64,000 nucleotides of DNA, from the NCBI GenBank assembly GCA_019637315.1, contig JAHBVU010000008.1, positions 1 through 64,000 of the forward strand, given 5' to 3'. Positions 33,858-43,007 of the stretch are shown here, piece after piece. Each line of letters opens with the position of its first letter. Within the stretch, counting starts at the first letter, position 1. This DNA is from Gemmatimonadales bacterium (GTDB lineage: Bacteria > Gemmatimonadota > Gemmatimonadetes > Gemmatimonadales > GWC2-71-9). Below the pieces are notes generated by a model. That model ran no database searches. It had not been told where the DNA came from and saw only the letters and a program-made list of their open reading frames with translations. The position numbers were made by a program, and so were the translations under genes.

Positions 33858-36800
33858 ATGCGCCCAACCTCGTATTACCTCAAATGCCTTGGCATTCCGG
33901 AGCTGAGGGCGCCGGACGGCAAGGCCGTGCGCATCCGGGTCAAGAAGCACCTGGCCCTCCTCGTCTATCTTGCCGTCGAGCGCAACCGGCCTCACTCGCG
34001 CGATCGTCTCGTCGATGTCTTCTGGCCGCATGCGCCGCGGGACCGCGGCCGGCATTCCTGCGCAACCGCCGTTTCCTTGCTGCGCAGCATTCTCGGCAAG
34101 GATTCGCTGATCCATACCCGTGCCGGGCTCAGGTTCGTGCCGACGGGCCTCACGTTCGACCTCGACTACCTGGAGTCAGGCCAAATCATCGGTGCCGACG
34201 GTGAGCCGTTGCTCGATGTCGACGGCTTTCTCCGCGGCTTCGACATCGACGATGCGCCGGAGTTCATGTTCTGGAAAGAACGAGAGCATGTCCGAAGAAT
34301 GCCGGCTGTGCACGCCGGGCTGCTCGCCCTGATCGATCACGGCCGCAGGCGGAGTTCGCACGACGAGATCATGATGTGGGCCGAGCGGATCCTGTCGCTC
34401 GACCATCTGGCGGAAGAAGGGATCCGGGCTCAGATGGAGGCGTTTGCGCTGGTGGGCGACCGCGTCTCGGCGCTGCGGATCTTCGACGAGTGGAAGGACC
34501 GGCTGCTCGACGAGCTTGGTGCGCAACCGTCCCGGATGGTCGACGGCATGGCAGCTCAGCTTCGCAAGCGGGGCTGGCAGCCGAGCCGAGCAAAGCCTAC
34601 GCCCGCCGTCCCGGCCGAACAGTGGCGCCGCACCTCGTTCGTAGGGCGTCGCCATGAGTACCAGCACCTCTATGAGGTCTGGGAGGGGGTCCATCACTAT
34701 CAGGCCAAGCACTTGCTGATCACCGGCGACAGCGGCGTGGGTAAGACGACCCTGGCTCAACGCCTCGTGACGGCCGCTGGGCTCGAGGGGGCGTCTGTAT
34801 CCCGGGTGCAGTGCTACCACGTCGAGCAGCGAATCCCGTATGCTGCGGTGAGCAGCATCGTTCTGGGGCTCCTCGATCGACCGGGTGTGTCGTCAGCTGC
34901 GCCATCCGCTCTGGCCGAACTGGCCCGGATCATTCCGCAGGTGCGGGAGCTCTTTGCGCGGCTGCCGGAGCCGCAGAGCGTCGAAGGCGAGTCGGTTCGG
35001 CTGCTCTTTGCCGAGGCCGTCGTCGACCTCCTTCGAGCCTTGCTGTCCGAACGACCGGTCCTGCTCGTCGTCGACGACTGGATTTATGCGGACGAGGTCA
35101 GCCGCGCCGTGTTGCACCTGATCACGCGGCGGATCGACGACCGACGCTTCATGCTCGTGGCCACATTGCGAGCCGATGTCGGGACCGAGTATCAGGCCGC
35201 CGAGGCCGACCTGTCGAGCCTGGTCGGAGCGCGGATTGCACTGGACCCGATGCCACGCGAGGATTGCCTCGACCTCCTGGACGCAATCCTTCCGCCCGAT
35301 CACCCGGCGCCCAGTTCGACCGAGAAGCGGGCGCTGGTTGCGGCATCACGCGGCTATCCGATGGCGCTCGAGCTGTTCGCGCATGACTGGGTCATCAGCG
35401 GCCCCGGATGCATGGGCCTGGCGCTCCGGGCTTTCACGACGGCCTATCAGTCCTCCAAGTCCGGCGGGGCCGATCCGTTCCGCGAACTGGTGGCCCGCCT
35501 GATGAACGACCTGACGCCAAGCATGCGCCAGTGCCTCTTCCTGGCTGCTGTGCTTGGCCCGAACCTGGGCGATCTGGCGGTCTATTCGAGTCTTGACCTG
35601 ACCTTGAGTCAGACGATGGAAAGCCTCGCCGCGTTGACGGATCGACGGATCCTACGTGATGTCGGCAGCGGCACGGAGTTCATGAACGAACTGGTGCGGG
35701 CCCACGTGTACGGAGCCATCCCTGCCCCGCTACGAGTCCAGCTTCACAGCCTGATCGCCGACCACCTGATTGCCAGCACGGGCAACGGACGCCGAGACCA
35801 GCATCTCGAGATTGCGTGGCATCTGATCCGATCGCGTCGCGGGCAGGAGGCCGTAGAGTACTTGATTGGTGGCGCTGAGGACGCACTGCTCCGAGGTGCT
35901 CCGGACGATGTCATCCTTGCACTCGAGAGTTTCCCGCGAGACGTGCTGAGCAATAGCGACGGCTCTCGTGACCGCATCCCCGAGCTTCTCGTTGAAGCTC
36001 TCTACGAAACCTCCCGCTGGGAGGATGGTCTTCGCATCGCTGTCGACCACAGCCAAACACCCGCCGCATCGGTATTCCGTGTGTTCGCAATCGAGGCGAA
36101 CTGGCACTTAGGTCGGCTCTCCGAGGCCGAACAACGCCAGCACATCGACGAGTTGCTACAGATCGGATGCACTGAACCAGCCAGCGCGGGACGCGCAATA
36201 GCGCTGGGCGCGTTTATGGCTGGCGGCCTTCGAGATGAGACCCTTGTACAGTACGTCGAGTCGCGTCTGAGGAACATCCCTGACCCGCCGTCTCCAAGCG
36301 ACTGTGCCCGAGTCCTGATGGCGAGAGCCAACCTTGCTTTCTACCGACGAAAGCTTGATGAGGGCGAGCATGCAGCCACTCAAGCGCGTCAGATTCTTGA
36401 CGAGATTGGAGCGGTAAATACCGTTGCGGTACGCCTCGAGATAGGCCTGAGCGTCTTCCGGATCGCTAGGGGTGACTACCACACTGCGTACGATCACCTG
36501 GTCGAGGCGATTCGCCTTGGACGACGAATCGACAACCATAACCTAACCTCTCTCGCATCCGGAAACGCGGCACTGGCATGCCTACGACTGGGCCGCTTCG
36601 ATGAGGCCATCCGCCATGCGGGAGACGCAGGCAGCCGCGCAGATGCGCCGACCCAAGAGATGTCCGCCTACAGCGCTTCTTTCTCGCTCGCAACTCTGGG
36701 ACGGCACGAAGAGGCACTAAAGCACCTGAGCATCTCAAGCGAACGGATCTGCAAATTCGACCAAGGCTGGATCCACCAGATATGGATGCTTCATCAAGCA

Positions 36801-37181
36801 GACGTACTGTGGCTTTGCGGGCACAAACGAAAAGCATCGGCGTTGGCGCGCAAGGCCACCATCGAACAGCATGGCATCCCGTTGACCCGAGGCCTGACTG
36901 GAATCTTCTTACGATGGGCAACGATTGTTGCGTCCTCAGACGAGGAACGTTTGGAACTCACTCGGATCGCAACCTCTGCCTGGCACCAGCGAGAGCAGTT
37001 GGACGCACTCGATCGCTACGAGCTAACACAGGCCCTGCGACGAACACCCGAAACGTTTCGACCGGTCCCAATCGATGTTCTGGATCGAGAAGCGCGTGCC
37101 CTCGAACGTCAGATTCCCTCGCCAACTCAAGAAGCAGTTCGCCAGATTGGACTAGAAGTAGCGCGTTTGCGTACGCACTGA
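33858..37181 (+). CDS. Large BTAD-type transcriptional regulator with AAA/STAND ATPase and TPR domains
   Basis: An 1107-residue regulator. An OmpR-like winged-helix (about 5-95, VKKHLALLVYLAVERNRPHSRDRLVDVFWP) is followed by the bacterial transcriptional activation domain (about 100-240), a STAND/AAA ATPase (Walker A GDSGVGKTT near residue 290; Walker B LLVVDDW near 403) and a long helical C-terminus resembling TPR repeats (GLSVFRIARGDYHTAYDHLVEAIRLGRR). The architecture is that of SARP/AfsR-like activators, which switch on ATP binding when a signal meets the TPRs. The target is unknown. The 3' third is visibly less GC-rich than the 5' part, like the HD-GYP gene beyond it. Confidence 0.85.
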   Translation: MRPTSYYLKCLGIPELRAPDGKAVRIRVKKHLALLVYLAVERNRPHSRDRLVDVFWPHAPRDRGRHSCATAVSLLRSILGKDSLIHTRAGLRFVPTGLTFDLDYLESGQIIGADGEPLLDVDGFLRGFDIDDAPEFMFWKEREHVRRMPAVHAGLLALIDHGRRRSSHDEIMMWAERILSLDHLAEEGIRAQMEAFALVGDRVSALRIFDEWKDRLLDELGAQPSRMVDGMAAQLRKRGWQPSRAKPTPAVPAEQWRRTSFVGRRHEYQHLYEVWEGVHHYQAKHLLITGDSGVGKTTLAQRLVTAAGLEGASVSRVQCYHVEQRIPYAAVSSIVLGLLDRPGVSSAAPSALAELARIIPQVRELFARLPEPQSVEGESVRLLFAEAVVDLLRALLSERPVLLVVDDWIYADEVSRAVLHLITRRIDDRRFMLVATLRADVGTEYQAAEADLSSLVGARIALDPMPREDCLDLLDAILPPDHPAPSSTEKRALVAASRGYPMALELFAHDWVISGPGCMGLALRAFTTAYQSSKSGGADPFRELVARLMNDLTPSMRQCLFLAAVLGPNLGDLAVYSSLDLTLSQTMESLAALTDRRILRDVGSGTEFMNELVRAHVYGAIPAPLRVQLHSLIADHLIASTGNGRRDQHLEIAWHLIRSRRGQEAVEYLIGGAEDALLRGAPDDVILALESFPRDVLSNSDGSRDRIPELLVEALYETSRWEDGLRIAVDHSQTPAASVFRVFAIEANWHLGRLSEAEQRQHIDELLQIGCTEPASAGRAIALGAFMAGGLRDETLVQYVESRLRNIPDPPSPSDCARVLMARANLAFYRRKLDEGEHAATQARQILDEIGAVNTVAVRLEIGLSVFRIARGDYHTAYDHLVEAIRLGRRIDNHNLTSLASGNAALACLRLGRFDEAIRHAGDAGSRADAPTQEMSAYSASFSLATLGRHEEALKHLSISSERICKFDQGWIHQIWMLHQADVLWLCGHKRKASALARKATIEQHGIPLTRGLTGIFLRWATIVASSDEERLELTRIATSAWHQREQLDALDRYELTQALRRTPETFRPVPIDVLDREARALERQIPSPTQEAVRQIGLEVARLRTH

Positions 37182-37191
37182 CCTGCAGGTA

Positions 37192-38682
37192 TCAGTTTGG
37201 GGTCGCGCTAGCTCGGAGAGCCTCAAGAAAGCTAGACTGCGATCGCAGCGCCGGGCGTGGTGATTTCGCAGGGACATGCCTTGGGACTGTGTGTTCGGCA
37301 AGGAACTCCTTGTCCGAGACCAGCCGCCGAACTGTGACAGAATTGATAGCGCCATCCACAACCATCGGGTCGAACTGACTTCCGCGATATTTCTGAAGTT
37401 CCGCAATGACCTTTTCGAACGAAAGTGCATTTCGGTAGGGGCGGTCCGTCGTCATAGCATCGATCGTATCCGAGATCATGATAACGCGTGCACCAAGCGG
37501 AATTTCCTCCCCCGACTTGCCATCCGGATATCCCTTGCCGTCCCATCGTTCATGGTGCGACCGAACGCAGTTCTGGACGTTCCCCTGAAATCGCGAGAAC
37601 AAACCGACCAACTCTGCACTCTTTGCCGCATGCGTCTTCATTATTTCCCACTCCTCCTGGGTCAACCGACCTTCCTTTTGGATGAGCGGGGCAAACTCCT
37701 CGTGAATCTTCCCTACGTCATGGAGAAGCGCTGCGGTCTCAACCTCAACAAGATCATCCCCCGTAATGCCGAGGTCCTGGGCTATCGCCTTCGACAAGGC
37801 CGCAACCCGACGCGAATGACCTGACGTGTATGGATCCCTAGCTTCGATCGACTTAACCATCATTTCAAGCTGCTCACGCAACGCCAATTCGAGCCGTTCG
37901 TGAGCCTGCTCCAGCTCGTCGTAGAGACCTTTTACCGCATTGAGCTTGGCATAGACGTGCTTCGCAACGATCAGCGGAATAATGAATAGCAGGAATCCGA
38001 CACGAGACAGAACGGATGGGCCGTCAAACTTCAGATACAACCAGGCGACAAACAGTGCAATTGCGCTGGCGCCAACGTCATAACCGAACACCCACAAATG
38101 ACTAGTTGCCCATACCTCACCGAAGGATTTCCCGCTCGACAGCGCAACCGCAGCTGCAACCAGGACAGAATTGGCGATGAAGTAGACCGTCGCGGCGGCC
38201 AGGAATGCAAGGACTGTTAACACCACCTCACCTGTCTCGACCCCTACCCCAGGCAGCAGCATGGGAGGAGGGACGACCCCCCCTAAGGCATCAAAGACTG
38301 ACATCGCTGCTAGTACCGCAATCGAACGCTGCGCAATGTTGAAGCTTGCCTTGATCGGTTCACGTTTGAGCAGGACCTGACTCAATAACGTCGAAGCGCC
38401 AGCGGTCAAAGCACCCCAAAACGGGCCAAAGAGCAGACCTGCAGCAAGGTGGACAACGAAGGAGAGGGATCCGTCGGCCCCGCCACCCCGACTGATTGTA
38501 GCACTGACTTGAAGGAGAAACGCGACCAGCAATAACACGCTTATGCCCCACACGCCCGGGAACGCCCCGGCTGTGGGCCATGCGAGACCGAGTCCGATCA
38601 TCGCTACTGCGACGGTCGCCGCGACGAAAACGTGCACCTTGGTCAAACGCATCATGATTACGGGTAGAGGGGCCGCGATCAA
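37192..38682 (-). CDS. Membrane-bound HD-GYP domain protein (probable c-di-GMP phosphodiesterase)
   Basis: A 496-residue protein: an N-terminal membrane domain of about seven or eight helices (residues 15-250), a short coiled coil (YDELEQAHERLELALREQLE), then an HD-GYP domain with HSRRVA, LLHDVGK (HD near residue 321) and HHERWDGKGYPDG (GYP). HD-GYP enzymes hydrolyse c-di-GMP. The TTG start at 38682 directly follows the TAG of a 28-residue ORF, with GGAGG three bases before it; ATGs at 38655 and 38652 are alternatives without ribosome site. The gene is less GC-rich than its surroundings (one 60-base line counts 47 percent). Confidence 0.88.
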   Translation of the reverse strand: MIAAPLPVIMMRLTKVHVFVAATVAVAMIGLGLAWPTAGAFPGVWGISVLLLVAFLLQVSATISRGGGADGSLSFVVHLAAGLLFGPFWGALTAGASTLLSQVLLKREPIKASFNIAQRSIAVLAAMSVFDALGGVVPPPMLLPGVGVETGEVVLTVLAFLAAATVYFIANSVLVAAAVALSSGKSFGEVWATSHLWVFGYDVGASAIALFVAWLYLKFDGPSVLSRVGFLLFIIPLIVAKHVYAKLNAVKGLYDELEQAHERLELALREQLEMMVKSIEARDPYTSGHSRRVAALSKAIAQDLGITGDDLVEVETAALLHDVGKIHEEFAPLIQKEGRLTQEEWEIMKTHAAKSAELVGLFSRFQGNVQNCVRSHHERWDGKGYPDGKSGEEIPLGARVIMISDTIDAMTTDRPYRNALSFEKVIAELQKYRGSQFDPMVVDGAINSVTVRRLVSDKEFLAEHTVPRHVPAKSPRPALRSQSSFLEALRASATPN

Positions 38683-38973: not shown

Positions 38974-39705
38974 TCAGGCCGGACGCCGCGCGTCCACCCA
39001 ACGATTGGTCGCGTCCAGAACCGCAAACACGGCGGCCCGCTCCGGGCTCTGCCGGATCTCGGCGGTGCCAGTGAGCAGCACGCCATCCCGGCCTCCCATG
39101 CCCTGCAACGCCACGAACACCACACTCCGATCGGCCGCCTCGACGACCTGAACATTCTCGACCATCAGGCTGTGCTTTTCGAGCAACCGCTGCAGCACCG
39201 ACACGGTCGCCCGCGCCGCGCCTTCGACCCGGCCGCGAGGCGTGTCCGTCGTCTCTTCGTCAGCGGCCTCCTGCCGACCGGCAATCGACAGCGACACCTG
39301 CACCACGACCCGCAGCGGACGGTCGCTGCCACGCACGACGAGGTCCTCGAAGAGCACCCCGCGCTGCATCGCACGCTCCCGCACCGAGGCCCGCTCGATG
39401 GTTTCCATCGGACGCACTTCGGCGGTCTGCGCAATGCTGATCTTGCGATGATCGACCTTGAGACCGAGCTGCGCCAGCAGGGCCGACTCGATGTTGCGTA
39501 CCAACTGTTTCGGCTGCAACCCGGACTGCGCCAGCACGTGGATCTCGCTGACCTCGCCCAACGGGGTGGTCACCACCCGCGCCGAGAGGACACCCTCGAG
39601 GGTGGTGAGCAGGTTCTCCGCCCGCCGCACGCCCCACGGGTCCGGCATGCTCTCGACCGGCTTGGCCGAGCCGATGTCCTGGCGCAGTGGATTGGGTCCC
39701 GTCAC
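38974..39705 (-). CDS. Conserved hypothetical protein in the ferredoxin-GGDEF operon
   Basis: No named domain recognised. 243 residues in two alpha/beta halves. The first (about 25-95) has LEGVLSARVV, EVSEIHVLAQSGLQPKQLVRN and GLKVDHRKISIAQT; the second (about 115-240) has a strand-rich part, AARATVSVLQRLLEKHSLMVENVQVV, and a strongly conserved-looking end EIRQSPERAAVFAVLDATNRWV. No membrane segment or signal. The GTG start has AAGGA nine bases upstream and lies 25 bases after the GGDEF fusion gene, so the two are cotranscribed and may interact. Confidence 0.7.
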   Translation of the reverse strand: MTGPNPLRQDIGSAKPVESMPDPWGVRRAENLLTTLEGVLSARVVTTPLGEVSEIHVLAQSGLQPKQLVRNIESALLAQLGLKVDHRKISIAQTAEVRPMETIERASVRERAMQRGVLFEDLVVRGSDRPLRVVVQVSLSIAGRQEAADEETTDTPRGRVEGAARATVSVLQRLLEKHSLMVENVQVVEAADRSVVFVALQGMGGRDGVLLTGTAEIRQSPERAAVFAVLDATNRWVDARRPA

Positions 39706-39730: not shown

Positions 39731-41410
39731 TTAAACCACCGTGTTGCGTCCCGCCGCCTTGGCGCGGTACAGCGCCCGATCTGCGTTGACCAGCAGATCG
39801 CCGCCGCTGGGCCGATCCGGATCGTACTCCGCGATGCCGATGCTCACGGTCACCGGGAACCCCATCCGCTGCCCCACCGTTTCCACGCCGCGCCGAAGCG
39901 CTTCCGCCACCCGCTCCGCACCGACCAGGTCGGTCCGAGTCAGAATGACGACGAACTCGTCGCCCCCGTACCGCGCTGCCAGGTCCGAGGCGCGGACCGC
40001 GGCCCGAATCTCGAGCGCCACTTCCTTCAAGACCTCGTTGCCCGCTTCATGCCCAAACTGGTCGTTGACCTGCTTGAGCCGGTCAAGGTCAAGAAACAGC
40101 ACCGTAAAGCGATCGCCGCTGCGCTTGCTGCGCTCGACTTCGTGCGTCAGCCGATCCCGGAGAACCCGGAACGTCGCCAACCCGGTCAGCAGATCCGTCG
40201 CCGCCGCCCGATGCGCCTCTTCGGCCTGTCGCTCCTGGTACGGCCCGCACTGCTTGAGTGAGGCCCGCCCCAGCGCCGCAGCCTCCGCAAACGCGCGGCA
40301 GGTGTCGTAGCCGCAGGCCCGACAGTCCCAGGGCCGCCCGTTCGGTCCGAGCCCGATGGCCTCCAGGACCTGCTCGACCTGCTCAGGCTCGGCACCCGCG
40401 TTGGTCCGCGGACGGATGTCGAAGACCGCCCCGACACTGGCCACGACCCCCGCCTCGACCACCGGCACCCGACTCCGCGGCGGCTCGGTGTTCTGGACCA
40501 CGGCCCGCCGCCAGTACAACTGGTCGCGCGGTCCCGACAGCGGGTGGTCGAGCGCTCCCTCATACGAGAGCACATCGACAAAACCAAGATCGATCCGATC
40601 GACCGTGACGGCCCGCGAGATGGCCTTGAGCGCCGACAACCCGCGCACCTTCTGAAACCGCCGGCTCGAGTGCTTGGCATCCTCGAGCATAGTAACCGGC
40701 AACCCGCCCGCGACGCTCAGATAACGACGCCGTTCCTGCGGCACTCGGGTAAAGACCGTCGGCTGAGCCTGCACATGGACCCCGCGGGCCCGGAAGAGCT
40801 CGTCCAACTCCGCGAAGGTGATCGCCGCATCGACATCCGAGACCCCCGCCATCGGCGTCAGACCGGCATAGACGATCTTGATCTCCTCCGGCTGCATCGA
40901 ACGCAGGTAGCGAGCCTCGGCGACGACCGGCGACACCACCGGCGCGAGGTACGGCACCAGCTCGGGGAACTCCGACCGCACCGTGGCCACGACCACCGGG
41001 TCGGTCGACCGGATCAGTGTACCCCAGGTCTCACTCTGCCAGAGCCGGAGATACTCCATCGCCACCAGCTCGTCACCGATCACGCCGCGCGACACGAGCC
41101 GGAACCCCGCCGCATAGCAGGCGTTGACGACCTGCTCCGGCACCGCCGGGTAAAAGTGCGCGGCGCACTCGGTGTCGAGGATCAGCGCGCCCGTTCCCTC
41201 CGCAGCTATCGCGACGGCGTGCCCCAGCTCACCGGTGACATCGACCGCGCCATGAGGACACTCCGGGACACACAGCCCGCAGTGCACGCAGGCCTCGTCA
41301 ATGACGCGTACCCACGAGCCGTCCGGTGCGACCGCAATCGCGTTGCTCGGACACACCCGGACGCACGCCAGACAGCCGACGCAGGCCTCGTCATCGATGA
41401 CGAAATGCAC
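39731..41410 (-). CDS. Ferredoxin / degenerate [FeFe]-hydrogenase-like / Fe-S / GGDEF fusion (diguanylate cyclase)
   Basis: A 559-residue cytoplasmic sensor. Two 4Fe-4S sites (Cys 10,13,16,20 and 41,44,47,51) lead into a region like the large-subunit domain of sensory [FeFe]-hydrogenases (about 65-330; PYLAPVVSPVVAEARYLR, VDAAITFAELDELF). The usual H-cluster cysteines are replaced: TDPVVV for a CP motif, GLTPMAG for PC-x-AKK, SYEGALDHP for C-x-GGC. Next comes a third Fe-S motif (CRACGYDTCRAF, last Cys in SLKQC, about 362-388) and a GGDEF domain with intact GGDEF (about 481) and an inhibitory RASD I-site. Most likely a redox-controlled c-di-GMP synthase. The GTG at 41410 has AGGG six bases upstream; a TTG at 41443 is possible. 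Confidence 0.88.
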   Translation of the reverse strand: MHFVIDDEACVGCLACVRVCPSNAIAVAPDGSWVRVIDEACVHCGLCVPECPHGAVDVTGELGHAVAIAAEGTGALILDTECAAHFYPAVPEQVVNACYAAGFRLVSRGVIGDELVAMEYLRLWQSETWGTLIRSTDPVVVATVRSEFPELVPYLAPVVSPVVAEARYLRSMQPEEIKIVYAGLTPMAGVSDVDAAITFAELDELFRARGVHVQAQPTVFTRVPQERRRYLSVAGGLPVTMLEDAKHSSRRFQKVRGLSALKAISRAVTVDRIDLGFVDVLSYEGALDHPLSGPRDQLYWRRAVVQNTEPPRSRVPVVEAGVVASVGAVFDIRPRTNAGAEPEQVEQVLEAIGLGPNGRPWDCRACGYDTCRAFAEAAALGRASLKQCGPYQERQAEEAHRAAATDLLTGLATFRVLRDRLTHEVERSKRSGDRFTVLFLDLDRLKQVNDQFGHEAGNEVLKEVALEIRAAVRASDLAARYGGDEFVVILTRTDLVGAERVAEALRRGVETVGQRMGFPVTVSIGIAEYDPDRPSGGDLLVNADRALYRAKAAGRNTVV

Positions 41411-41507: not shown

Positions 41508-43007
41508 TCAGTCGAGTCCGTACTCCTTGATCTTACGGTAGAGCGTTCGCTCACCAATGCCAAGCTTTGCAGCCGCCTGGCGACGGTTTCCGTGAGACTC
41601 TCGGAGTGCGGCGCCTATTGTCGCCTTTTCAACTTCAGCCATAGTCATGCCAGAGCGATAGAGCACATCGGGGGGTGCAACGTCTGGCACGATCTCGTGC
41701 AAAGGCGAGAGGGACGACTCTGGAATTTCGATCACTTGGACCTTCGCAGGACGGTCATCGAGGCGGCGACGGAGCTCTTCGACCTGTAAACGAAGGTCCA
41801 TCAGCCCGCGCAAGATGAACTCGAGCTCCTGGCTCGACGGCTGCCGGCCGCCCGAATTGACGACCATGGGCAGCAAGGTGTGGGTTCCCTCCAACACTTC
41901 CGGAGGGATGTCCGACGCCCGGATCTCGGTTCCGGGCGCCAAAACGACCATCGATTCGACCAGATTCCGGAGTTGTCGGACGTTCCCGGGCCACGGCGCC
42001 CGGATCAGCAGGGCCATGGCCTCCGCGGTAATACCCCGGAAGGGCCGGTCGTGCTGCTTGGAGAACTCCCGAATGAAGCGGCGCACCAGGATCGAGATGT
42101 CTTCCCGCCGATCCCGCAGCGGCGCCAGGTCGATGTTGAGGACGCTGAGCCGGTAGTACAGGTCTTCCCGGAACTCGCCCCTGGCCACCGATTCCCGAAG
42201 TGCCCGGTTGGTTGCCGCCACCACCCGCACATCCACTTTGATCGGCTGAGTGCCGCCGACTCGAAAGAAGGATCGGGTCTCGAGCACCCGGAGCAGCTTA
42301 ACCTGCACGGCTTGCGGCACTTCGCCAATCTCGTCCAGAAAGATGGTGCCGCCGTCAGCCAGCTCGAATCGGCCCAGCCGACGCTCCGCCGCCCCGGTAA
42401 ATGCACCCTTCTCGTGACCAAACAGTTCCGACTCGAGCAACGTTTCCGGGAGCGCCGCGCAGTTGACCGGGATGAACGGCTTGCCGCGCCGAGGCGAGAG
42501 GTCGTGCAGACCCTTGGCAACGAGCTCCTTGCCGGTGCCCGATTCGCCCTGGATCAGCACCGTCGTCGAGACGGGCGCCATCTGCTCGATCTTGACCAGG
42601 ACCTCATGGATGGCACTGCTCTGCCCGATAATGCCGATGCGCTGCTGCAGTTTTCGGCGATCGACTAGCCGCCGCGCCATGGCAACCGCTTCGACGATCG
42701 GCACCGGCTTGGGAGCGACCTGCGTCGCGCCGAGGCGCTCGATGCGCTCGCCCCGCTCCGAATCGGTCGGCTCGAGCAGCGCGAGGGTGTAGATCTCGAG
42801 GTCGCGAGCGTAGGTGATCAGCTCGAGCGCGGGCCCCTCATGAACCGCCCCCGTGAGGATAACCAGCTCGGGCTGCTCACGCCGGACTGCCGCCCGACCG
42901 TCGTCGACCGCCGAGACGAGCGAGGTGGTGAACCCCGCCTGCTCCAACGCAGCGTTCAACGGAACGGCGGTTTCGAGGTCCGCCAGCGTGAGAACGATGT
43001 CAGCCAT
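41508..43007 (-). CDS. Sigma-54-dependent transcriptional activator with atypical receiver
   Basis: A 499-residue NtrC-like protein. The N-terminal 120 residues fold like a receiver, but the phospho-acceptor position reads [11 protein letters not shown], with Thr where Asp is expected; the Lys of the KP pair is kept (VAPKPV). The AAA+ domain is complete: Walker A GESGTGKE, sigma-54 contact loop GAFTGA, Walker [13 protein letters not shown], and the R-finger region [10 protein letters not shown] Fis-type helix-turn-helix ends the protein ([20 protein letters not shown]). It should drive a sigma-54 promoter without normal phosphorylation. It overlaps moaB by eight bases. Confidence 0.92.

Follow-up and report, generated by a model that had tools for sequence, protein, structure and literature searches.

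The diguanylate cyclase described here raises the question of what a hydrogenase-like domain can contribute to a signaling protein once it has lost the cysteines that hold the hydrogenase cofactor. Its gene lies at 39731..41410 on the reverse strand of the 64,000-nucleotide stretch of Gemmatimonadales DNA that was analyzed (hereafter, the window; all cyclase features below are on this strand), and encodes 559 amino acids between a GTG start at 41410 and a stop codon ending at 39731. This start is supported by four close relatives (L003, L005, L012 and L016), since their frames are closed 1-3 codons upstream of the same place. The encoded protein contains an N-terminal ferredoxin domain with two CxxCxxCxxxCP motifs (41231..41410; C10, C13, C16 and C20; C41, C44, C47 and C51; PF00037/PF13237), an [FeFe]-hydrogenase H-domain-like module (residues 61-340; 40391..41230), an Fe-S motif of the form Cx2Cx4Cx16C (40247..40324; C363, C366, C371 and C388) and a GGDEF diguanylate cyclase domain (39734..40201).

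A first-pass annotation had proposed this arrangement of two ferredoxin clusters, a domain of the sensory [FeFe]-hydrogenase type, a further Fe-S motif and an intact GGDEF domain with an I-site, and curated domain models bear it out. By Pfam, the protein has two Fer4 matches, a PF02906 (Fe_hyd_lg_C) match of 52.1 bits against a cut-off of 22.1 (residues 99-292, as numbered on the 570-residue frame given to the scan) and a PF04060 match of 38.7 bits against a cut-off of 23, so both domains for which an HMM search had been suggested score above threshold. The cyclase domain scores 144.5 bits with PF00990 and also matches TIGR00254; its RASD(x5)GGDEF motif (39953..39994) holds both the RxxD I-site (R473, D476) and the GGDEF active site (residues 482-486), which are intact in all complete sequences except one or two. 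The two N-terminal [4Fe-4S] motifs and the C-terminal Cx2Cx4Cx16C motif give the protein the architecture of the group C and D putative sensory [FeFe]-hydrogenases, in which the latter motif marks a C-terminal [4Fe-4S] site (PMC8163306). Pfam found no match in the window protein to the downstream PAS domain that characterizes group C, and the GGDEF domain stands in its place. The best NCBIfam hydrogenase match is to the group B1 model TIGR04105 (90.6 bits, E 8.8e-26), yet it falls far below the cut-off of 450; HydS proteins of the same phylum also score best against this model (182-189 bits). An origin of the module from a group A hydrogenase was rejected, as TIGR02512 is absent among the matches listed.

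Structure prediction also relates the module to [FeFe]-hydrogenases. AlphaFold modeling on 32 window and locus sequences gave a mean pLDDT of 84; the full-length model matches GGDEF structures, and its N-terminal part matches [FeFe]-hydrogenases (DdHydAB, E 5.9e-13; CpI, E 1.2e-12). When residues 61-340 were modeled alone (pLDDT 91.3, pTM 0.89), every one of the best 50 Foldseek matches in the PDB was an [FeFe]-hydrogenase (lowest E 3.5e-10, TM 0.57-0.66, ~15% identity); a predicted structure without such likeness, the outcome set beforehand as telling against the assignment, did not occur. Because the rmsd to [FeFe]-hydrogenase structures is ~5 Å and loops are missing, the module is predicted to be a trimmed and diverged H-domain.

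The residues that would hold an H-cluster are gone from this module. Compared with three HydS-type Gemmatimonadota proteins in which every ligand is present (L038, L040 and L051), the former L1 motif (TSCCP-type; 40988..41011) now reads RSTDPVVV, with the ligand Cys replaced by Asp137; the former L2 motif (PCxxKKxE; 40844..40870) reads YAGLTPMAG, with Thr185 in place of Cys and the KKxE stretch deleted; and the former L3 motif (40544..40576), which held two H-cluster Cys, reads DVLSYEGALDH, with Tyr283 and Ala286 at their positions. The window protein thus has none of the four [4Fe-4S]H cysteines of an [FeFe]-hydrogenase enzyme, and the TDP, GLTPMAG and SYEGAL segments that had been reported at these positions read exactly so. 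In L038 and L040, the counterparts of the window's STDP, GLTPMAG and LSYEGA are TSCP or TTCP, GPCIAKKGE and LCCNGC, and L051 is similar; identity of the window protein is 24-26% to L038 and L040 and 21% to L051. Conserved cysteines that might rebuild the site from elsewhere in the module were sought in 81 cyclase sequences, but the sole other conserved one is C98, a helix residue shared by nearly all forms, so a rebuilt site was ruled out. Since all H-site ligands are lost and no other cysteine replaces them, the window protein, judged from its sequence, cannot bind an H-cluster, as the first-pass annotation had concluded, or react with H2. The three reference proteins are true HydS-type hydrogenases from a distant family of the phylum, where they occur beside catalytic [FeFe]-hydrogenases; L038 and L040 each carry a fused histidine kinase.

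The same fusion is found as a single-copy gene in 33 of the 35 genomes of the window's family, plus three genomes of another family, and the 144 relatives among named contigs are essentially all from Gemmatimonadota. One cyclase fragment (L120) comes from a metagenome-assembled genome labeled Betaproteobacteria, has Gemmatimonadota gene order and is probably mis-binned. A chance or composition artefact was ruled out by the curated domain scores, the fold search and the orthologs; likewise, chimeric assembly, gene decay or a pseudogene was ruled out by the presence of the fusion, with open frames, in dozens of independent assemblies.

Comparison of 81 Gemmatimonadota cyclase sequences revealed three forms without intermediates: C (n=32), D (n=34, including the window protein) and S (n=15). 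Form C has all four H-site cysteines in 32/32 sequences; form D has none in 22 and one in 12, with Asp at the L1 position in 34/34; and form S has none in 15/15, with Ser at L1. The earlier description of the protein as fully degenerate therefore stands for the window, which has zero H-site Cys, and is refined in that the degeneration is common to the clade and stepwise. All 12 accessory cluster cysteines (the eight of the ferredoxin domain plus C363, C366, C371 and C388) are kept in 34/34 form D sequences, and in 17/32 of form C. Form C examples such as L015, L017, L021, L027, L029, L031, L032 and others often lack one accessory ligand; C44 is replaced by Ala, Val or Ser in 13/32 and C363 by Ser in 6/32, losses that are never seen in form D. 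In form C, too, the KKxE stretch is missing from L2, where ~8 residues are deleted, and L3 has CxxC instead of CxxxC; because of these changes, judged from known H-cluster contacts, we infer that it could hold at best a cubane without the [2Fe] subcluster.

Loss of the ligands was not followed by decay of the module: its mean pairwise identity within form D (64%) equals that of the ferredoxin domain (64%), and conservation within this form reaches 95% or more at 87 positions, a pattern of purifying conservation. The L2 and L3 ligand positions themselves vary freely in form D. Over all 81 cyclases, ~61 module positions are at least 95% conserved, and many of these differ from HydS (E81, E92, Q93, N96, D113, E114, R134, R229, S232, R256, H289 and P290).

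A tree built without the motif columns places form D in one clade (SH-aLRT 99) that adjoins form C, with form S outside, and the branch to HydS carries 3.44 changes per column. A set of Fer4-less proteins with a related H-domain, from another family of the same order (L036, L037, L039 and L041-L050), has the ligand pattern C at L1, C at L2 and GCxC at L3. On the ground that HydS, form C and these same-order paralogs all carry the Cys, and not on branch support alone, the four Cys are likely to be ancestral, with separate losses in forms D and S; this order is put no higher than likely, given the great length of the HydS branch and a long-branch flag on the point where the Fer4-less proteins join. 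Loss of H2 chemistry is also likely to have preceded loss of the last cubane, since there is a four-Cys form without the [2Fe]-holding residues and these lineages have no HydF or HydG. Descent from a sensory-type hydrogenase, which the first-pass annotation had suggested, is supported by the domain order, the Cx2Cx4Cx16C spacing, the fold matches and the identity to the HydS-kinases given above. In the Fer4-less proteins the H-domain is followed by a proline-rich tail, which in some of them terminates in a hydrophobic segment; their genes have other genomic locations, and some genomes carry two.

The gene content of these genomes bears on which signal the protein could sense. Neither HydG (TIGR03955) nor HydF (TIGR03918) was found above cut-off in the 37 genomes of families f1, f2 and f7, the window's genome included; matches above or near cut-off occur only in two f9 genomes, G001 with HydG plus HydF and G009 with HydF above cut-off plus a split HydG, both of which encode HydS-type proteins and full-scoring PF02906 hydrogenases. 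Matches of the HydF model in f1 genomes (weak GTPase matches far below cut-off) and of the HydG model (generic radical-SAM-level scores) were not counted as presence. Each f1 genome has a single PF02906 gene, which is the window-type cyclase (one copy is split). No [NiFe]-hydrogenase was found in the window's genome, and heme-copper oxidases are encoded there and in all f1 genomes tested. Given the lack of HydF and HydG, the lack of a [NiFe]-hydrogenase and the presence of these oxidases, H2 sensing by the window protein is very unlikely, and the signal is more plausibly aerobic redox or O2.

The cyclase gene also has a conserved setting. Nearly all f1-type loci whose flanks are long enough share the order moaB, a σ54 activator gene (41508..43007, reverse strand in the window) directly upstream of the cyclase, the cyclase, a gene for a 243-residue protein (38974..39705, reverse strand, 25 bp downstream of the cyclase), a gap, a gene for an HD-GYP (MASE9-HD_5) c-di-GMP phosphodiesterase (37192..38682, reverse strand) and, on the other strand, a SARP-type regulator gene. 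The HD-GYP signature HHExxDGxGYP is intact in 22/23 orthologs among those listed. Form S loci mostly have the cyclase plus the 243-residue protein gene, and often the HD-GYP gene too. Genomes without the cyclase (for example, L144, L147, L150 and L153) keep the same block minus this gene; because block order is constant with or without it, the cyclase occupies a fixed slot near a c-di-GMP-degrading enzyme.

We propose, with a probability of about 0.6, that the window protein is a redox- or oxygen-responsive iron-sulfur diguanylate cyclase built on a dead group C/D-type hydrogenase scaffold. Its input would comprise the pair of [4Fe-4S] clusters in the N-terminal ferredoxin domain, the scaffold of the H-domain and the C-terminal Cx2Cx4Cx16C cluster, which would lie beside the helix that enters the GGDEF domain. 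If the three retained [4Fe-4S] sites are occupied, their redox state, presence or damage by oxygen may change how the scaffold and the linker helix (~residues 389-402) pack, and this change could alter the dimer arrangement and thus the level of c-di-GMP synthesis, which the HD-GYP phosphodiesterase of the same block would oppose.

Several other functions were weighed against this proposal. The emptied H-cluster cavity may have been reused for another ligand (a metabolite, a nucleotide, a quinone or other small molecule) that controls the cyclase, in which case the Fe-S clusters could be purely structural, a point against redox sensing, as is the toleration of the loss of one accessory ligand by a few four-Cys relatives; the ~61 positions conserved in the 81 cyclases, many unlike HydS, and the invariance of Asp137 in form D are consistent with such a pocket, but the retention of all 12 accessory ligands in form D is explained no less well by a cluster function, and we consider a new ligand site unlikely. 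It is quite improbable that the module is instead a protein-docking platform that senses the redox state or the phosphorylation of a partner, be it a ferredoxin, the 243-residue neighbor or the σ54 regulator. Where the flank suffices, the cyclase is almost always followed immediately by the 243-residue protein gene, and most f1-type loci have the σ54 gene upstream, yet these two genes and the HD-GYP gene stand in unchanged order in genomes that have no cyclase and so do not depend on it.

If the H-domain were a mere spacer, an evolutionary relic in a constitutive cyclase, this would accommodate the free variation of the L2 and L3 ligand positions in form D, but not a module conserved as strongly as the ferredoxin domain (0.64 vs 0.64) or the 87 positions that are at least 95% conserved, and such a relic is very improbable. 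That the protein still senses H2, through a non-canonical site, is suggested by its sharing the architecture of the putative H2-sensing group C and D enzymes (PMC8163306), but it is barely credible for a protein without H-cluster ligands or the KKxE stretch, in genomes without HydF and HydG and, for the window, without a [NiFe]-hydrogenase.

The redox- or oxygen-responsive cyclase proposed here has known relatives. Like the group C (M2f) TmHydS of Thermotoga maritima, the window protein has two N-terminal [4Fe-4S] motifs, an H-domain, a C-terminal Cx2Cx4Cx16C motif and then a signaling output (PMC8163306); unlike TmHydS, it lacks H-cluster ligands and maturases, and its output is GGDEF where TmHydS has PAS. 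The group D (M2e) TamHydS has the same three accessory clusters and the same Cx2Cx4Cx16C spacing (PMC8163306), but binds an H-cluster, is catalytically active and has no output domain. Nar1/NARFL, eukaryotic CIA proteins, also have an H-domain fold without [2Fe]H in organisms without maturases, but they keep the [4Fe-4S]H ligands, of which the window protein has 0/4, and act in Fe-S trafficking rather than as cyclases (PMC12621388); only form C resembles them. Redox or O2 input to GGDEF, the role proposed here, is provided in VcBhr-DGC (hemerythrin), AxDGC2 (FAD) and the globin-coupled diguanylate cyclases by other cofactors and other folds.

The first-pass annotation had called a degenerate hydrogenase on a cyclase little described, and no description that joins a hydrogenase H-cluster and GGDEF was found in the open-access literature; the terms ‘Fe-S’, ‘iron-sulfur’ and ‘hydrogenase’ are absent from a 2022 census of c-di-GMP sensors and inputs (PMC8846402). 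As far as the open-access literature shows, what is new is the combination of a dead active site and a new output on the sensory-hydrogenase architecture, with HydS and Nar1 as known relatives. A broader and more tentative proposal, which we hold at somewhat short of even odds, is that these proteins are c-di-GMP sensors of a new class. On this view, a hydrogenase scaffold in an aerobic phylum lost its catalytic cofactor stepwise ([2Fe], then the cubane, with L1 Cys changing to Asp in one lineage and to Ser in another) and came to act directly on GGDEF, either as an Fe-S input for redox or O2 or as a newly formed ligand pocket. If so, iron-sulfur clusters would join the direct inputs to c-di-GMP synthesis, and the phylum would offer a natural experiment in the conversion of a metalloenzyme into a sensor, with true HydS, a four-Cys form without the [2Fe] site and two forms without H-site ligands available for comparison. 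It would also separate the role of the accessory clusters from that of the H-cluster in sensory hydrogenases, a question left open for TamHydS (PMC13104023).

Other members of the block have features of their own. The 243-residue protein (which contains RNIESALLAQLGLKVDHRKISIAQ) has no Pfam, NCBIfam or PDB match, is encoded in 97/150 Gemmatimonadota genomes, and its gene stays between the σ54 and HD-GYP genes even without the cyclase. The σ54 activator has a receiver-like N-terminal part that has no Pfam receiver match and places Thr or Ser (PELVILTG) at the expected phospho-acceptor Asp, a substitution conserved across the orthologs checked, making this region a pseudo-receiver. The last gene of the block (33858-37181) runs on the opposite strand and encodes the large SARP-like transcriptional activator, which contains ATPase and repeat-like regions.
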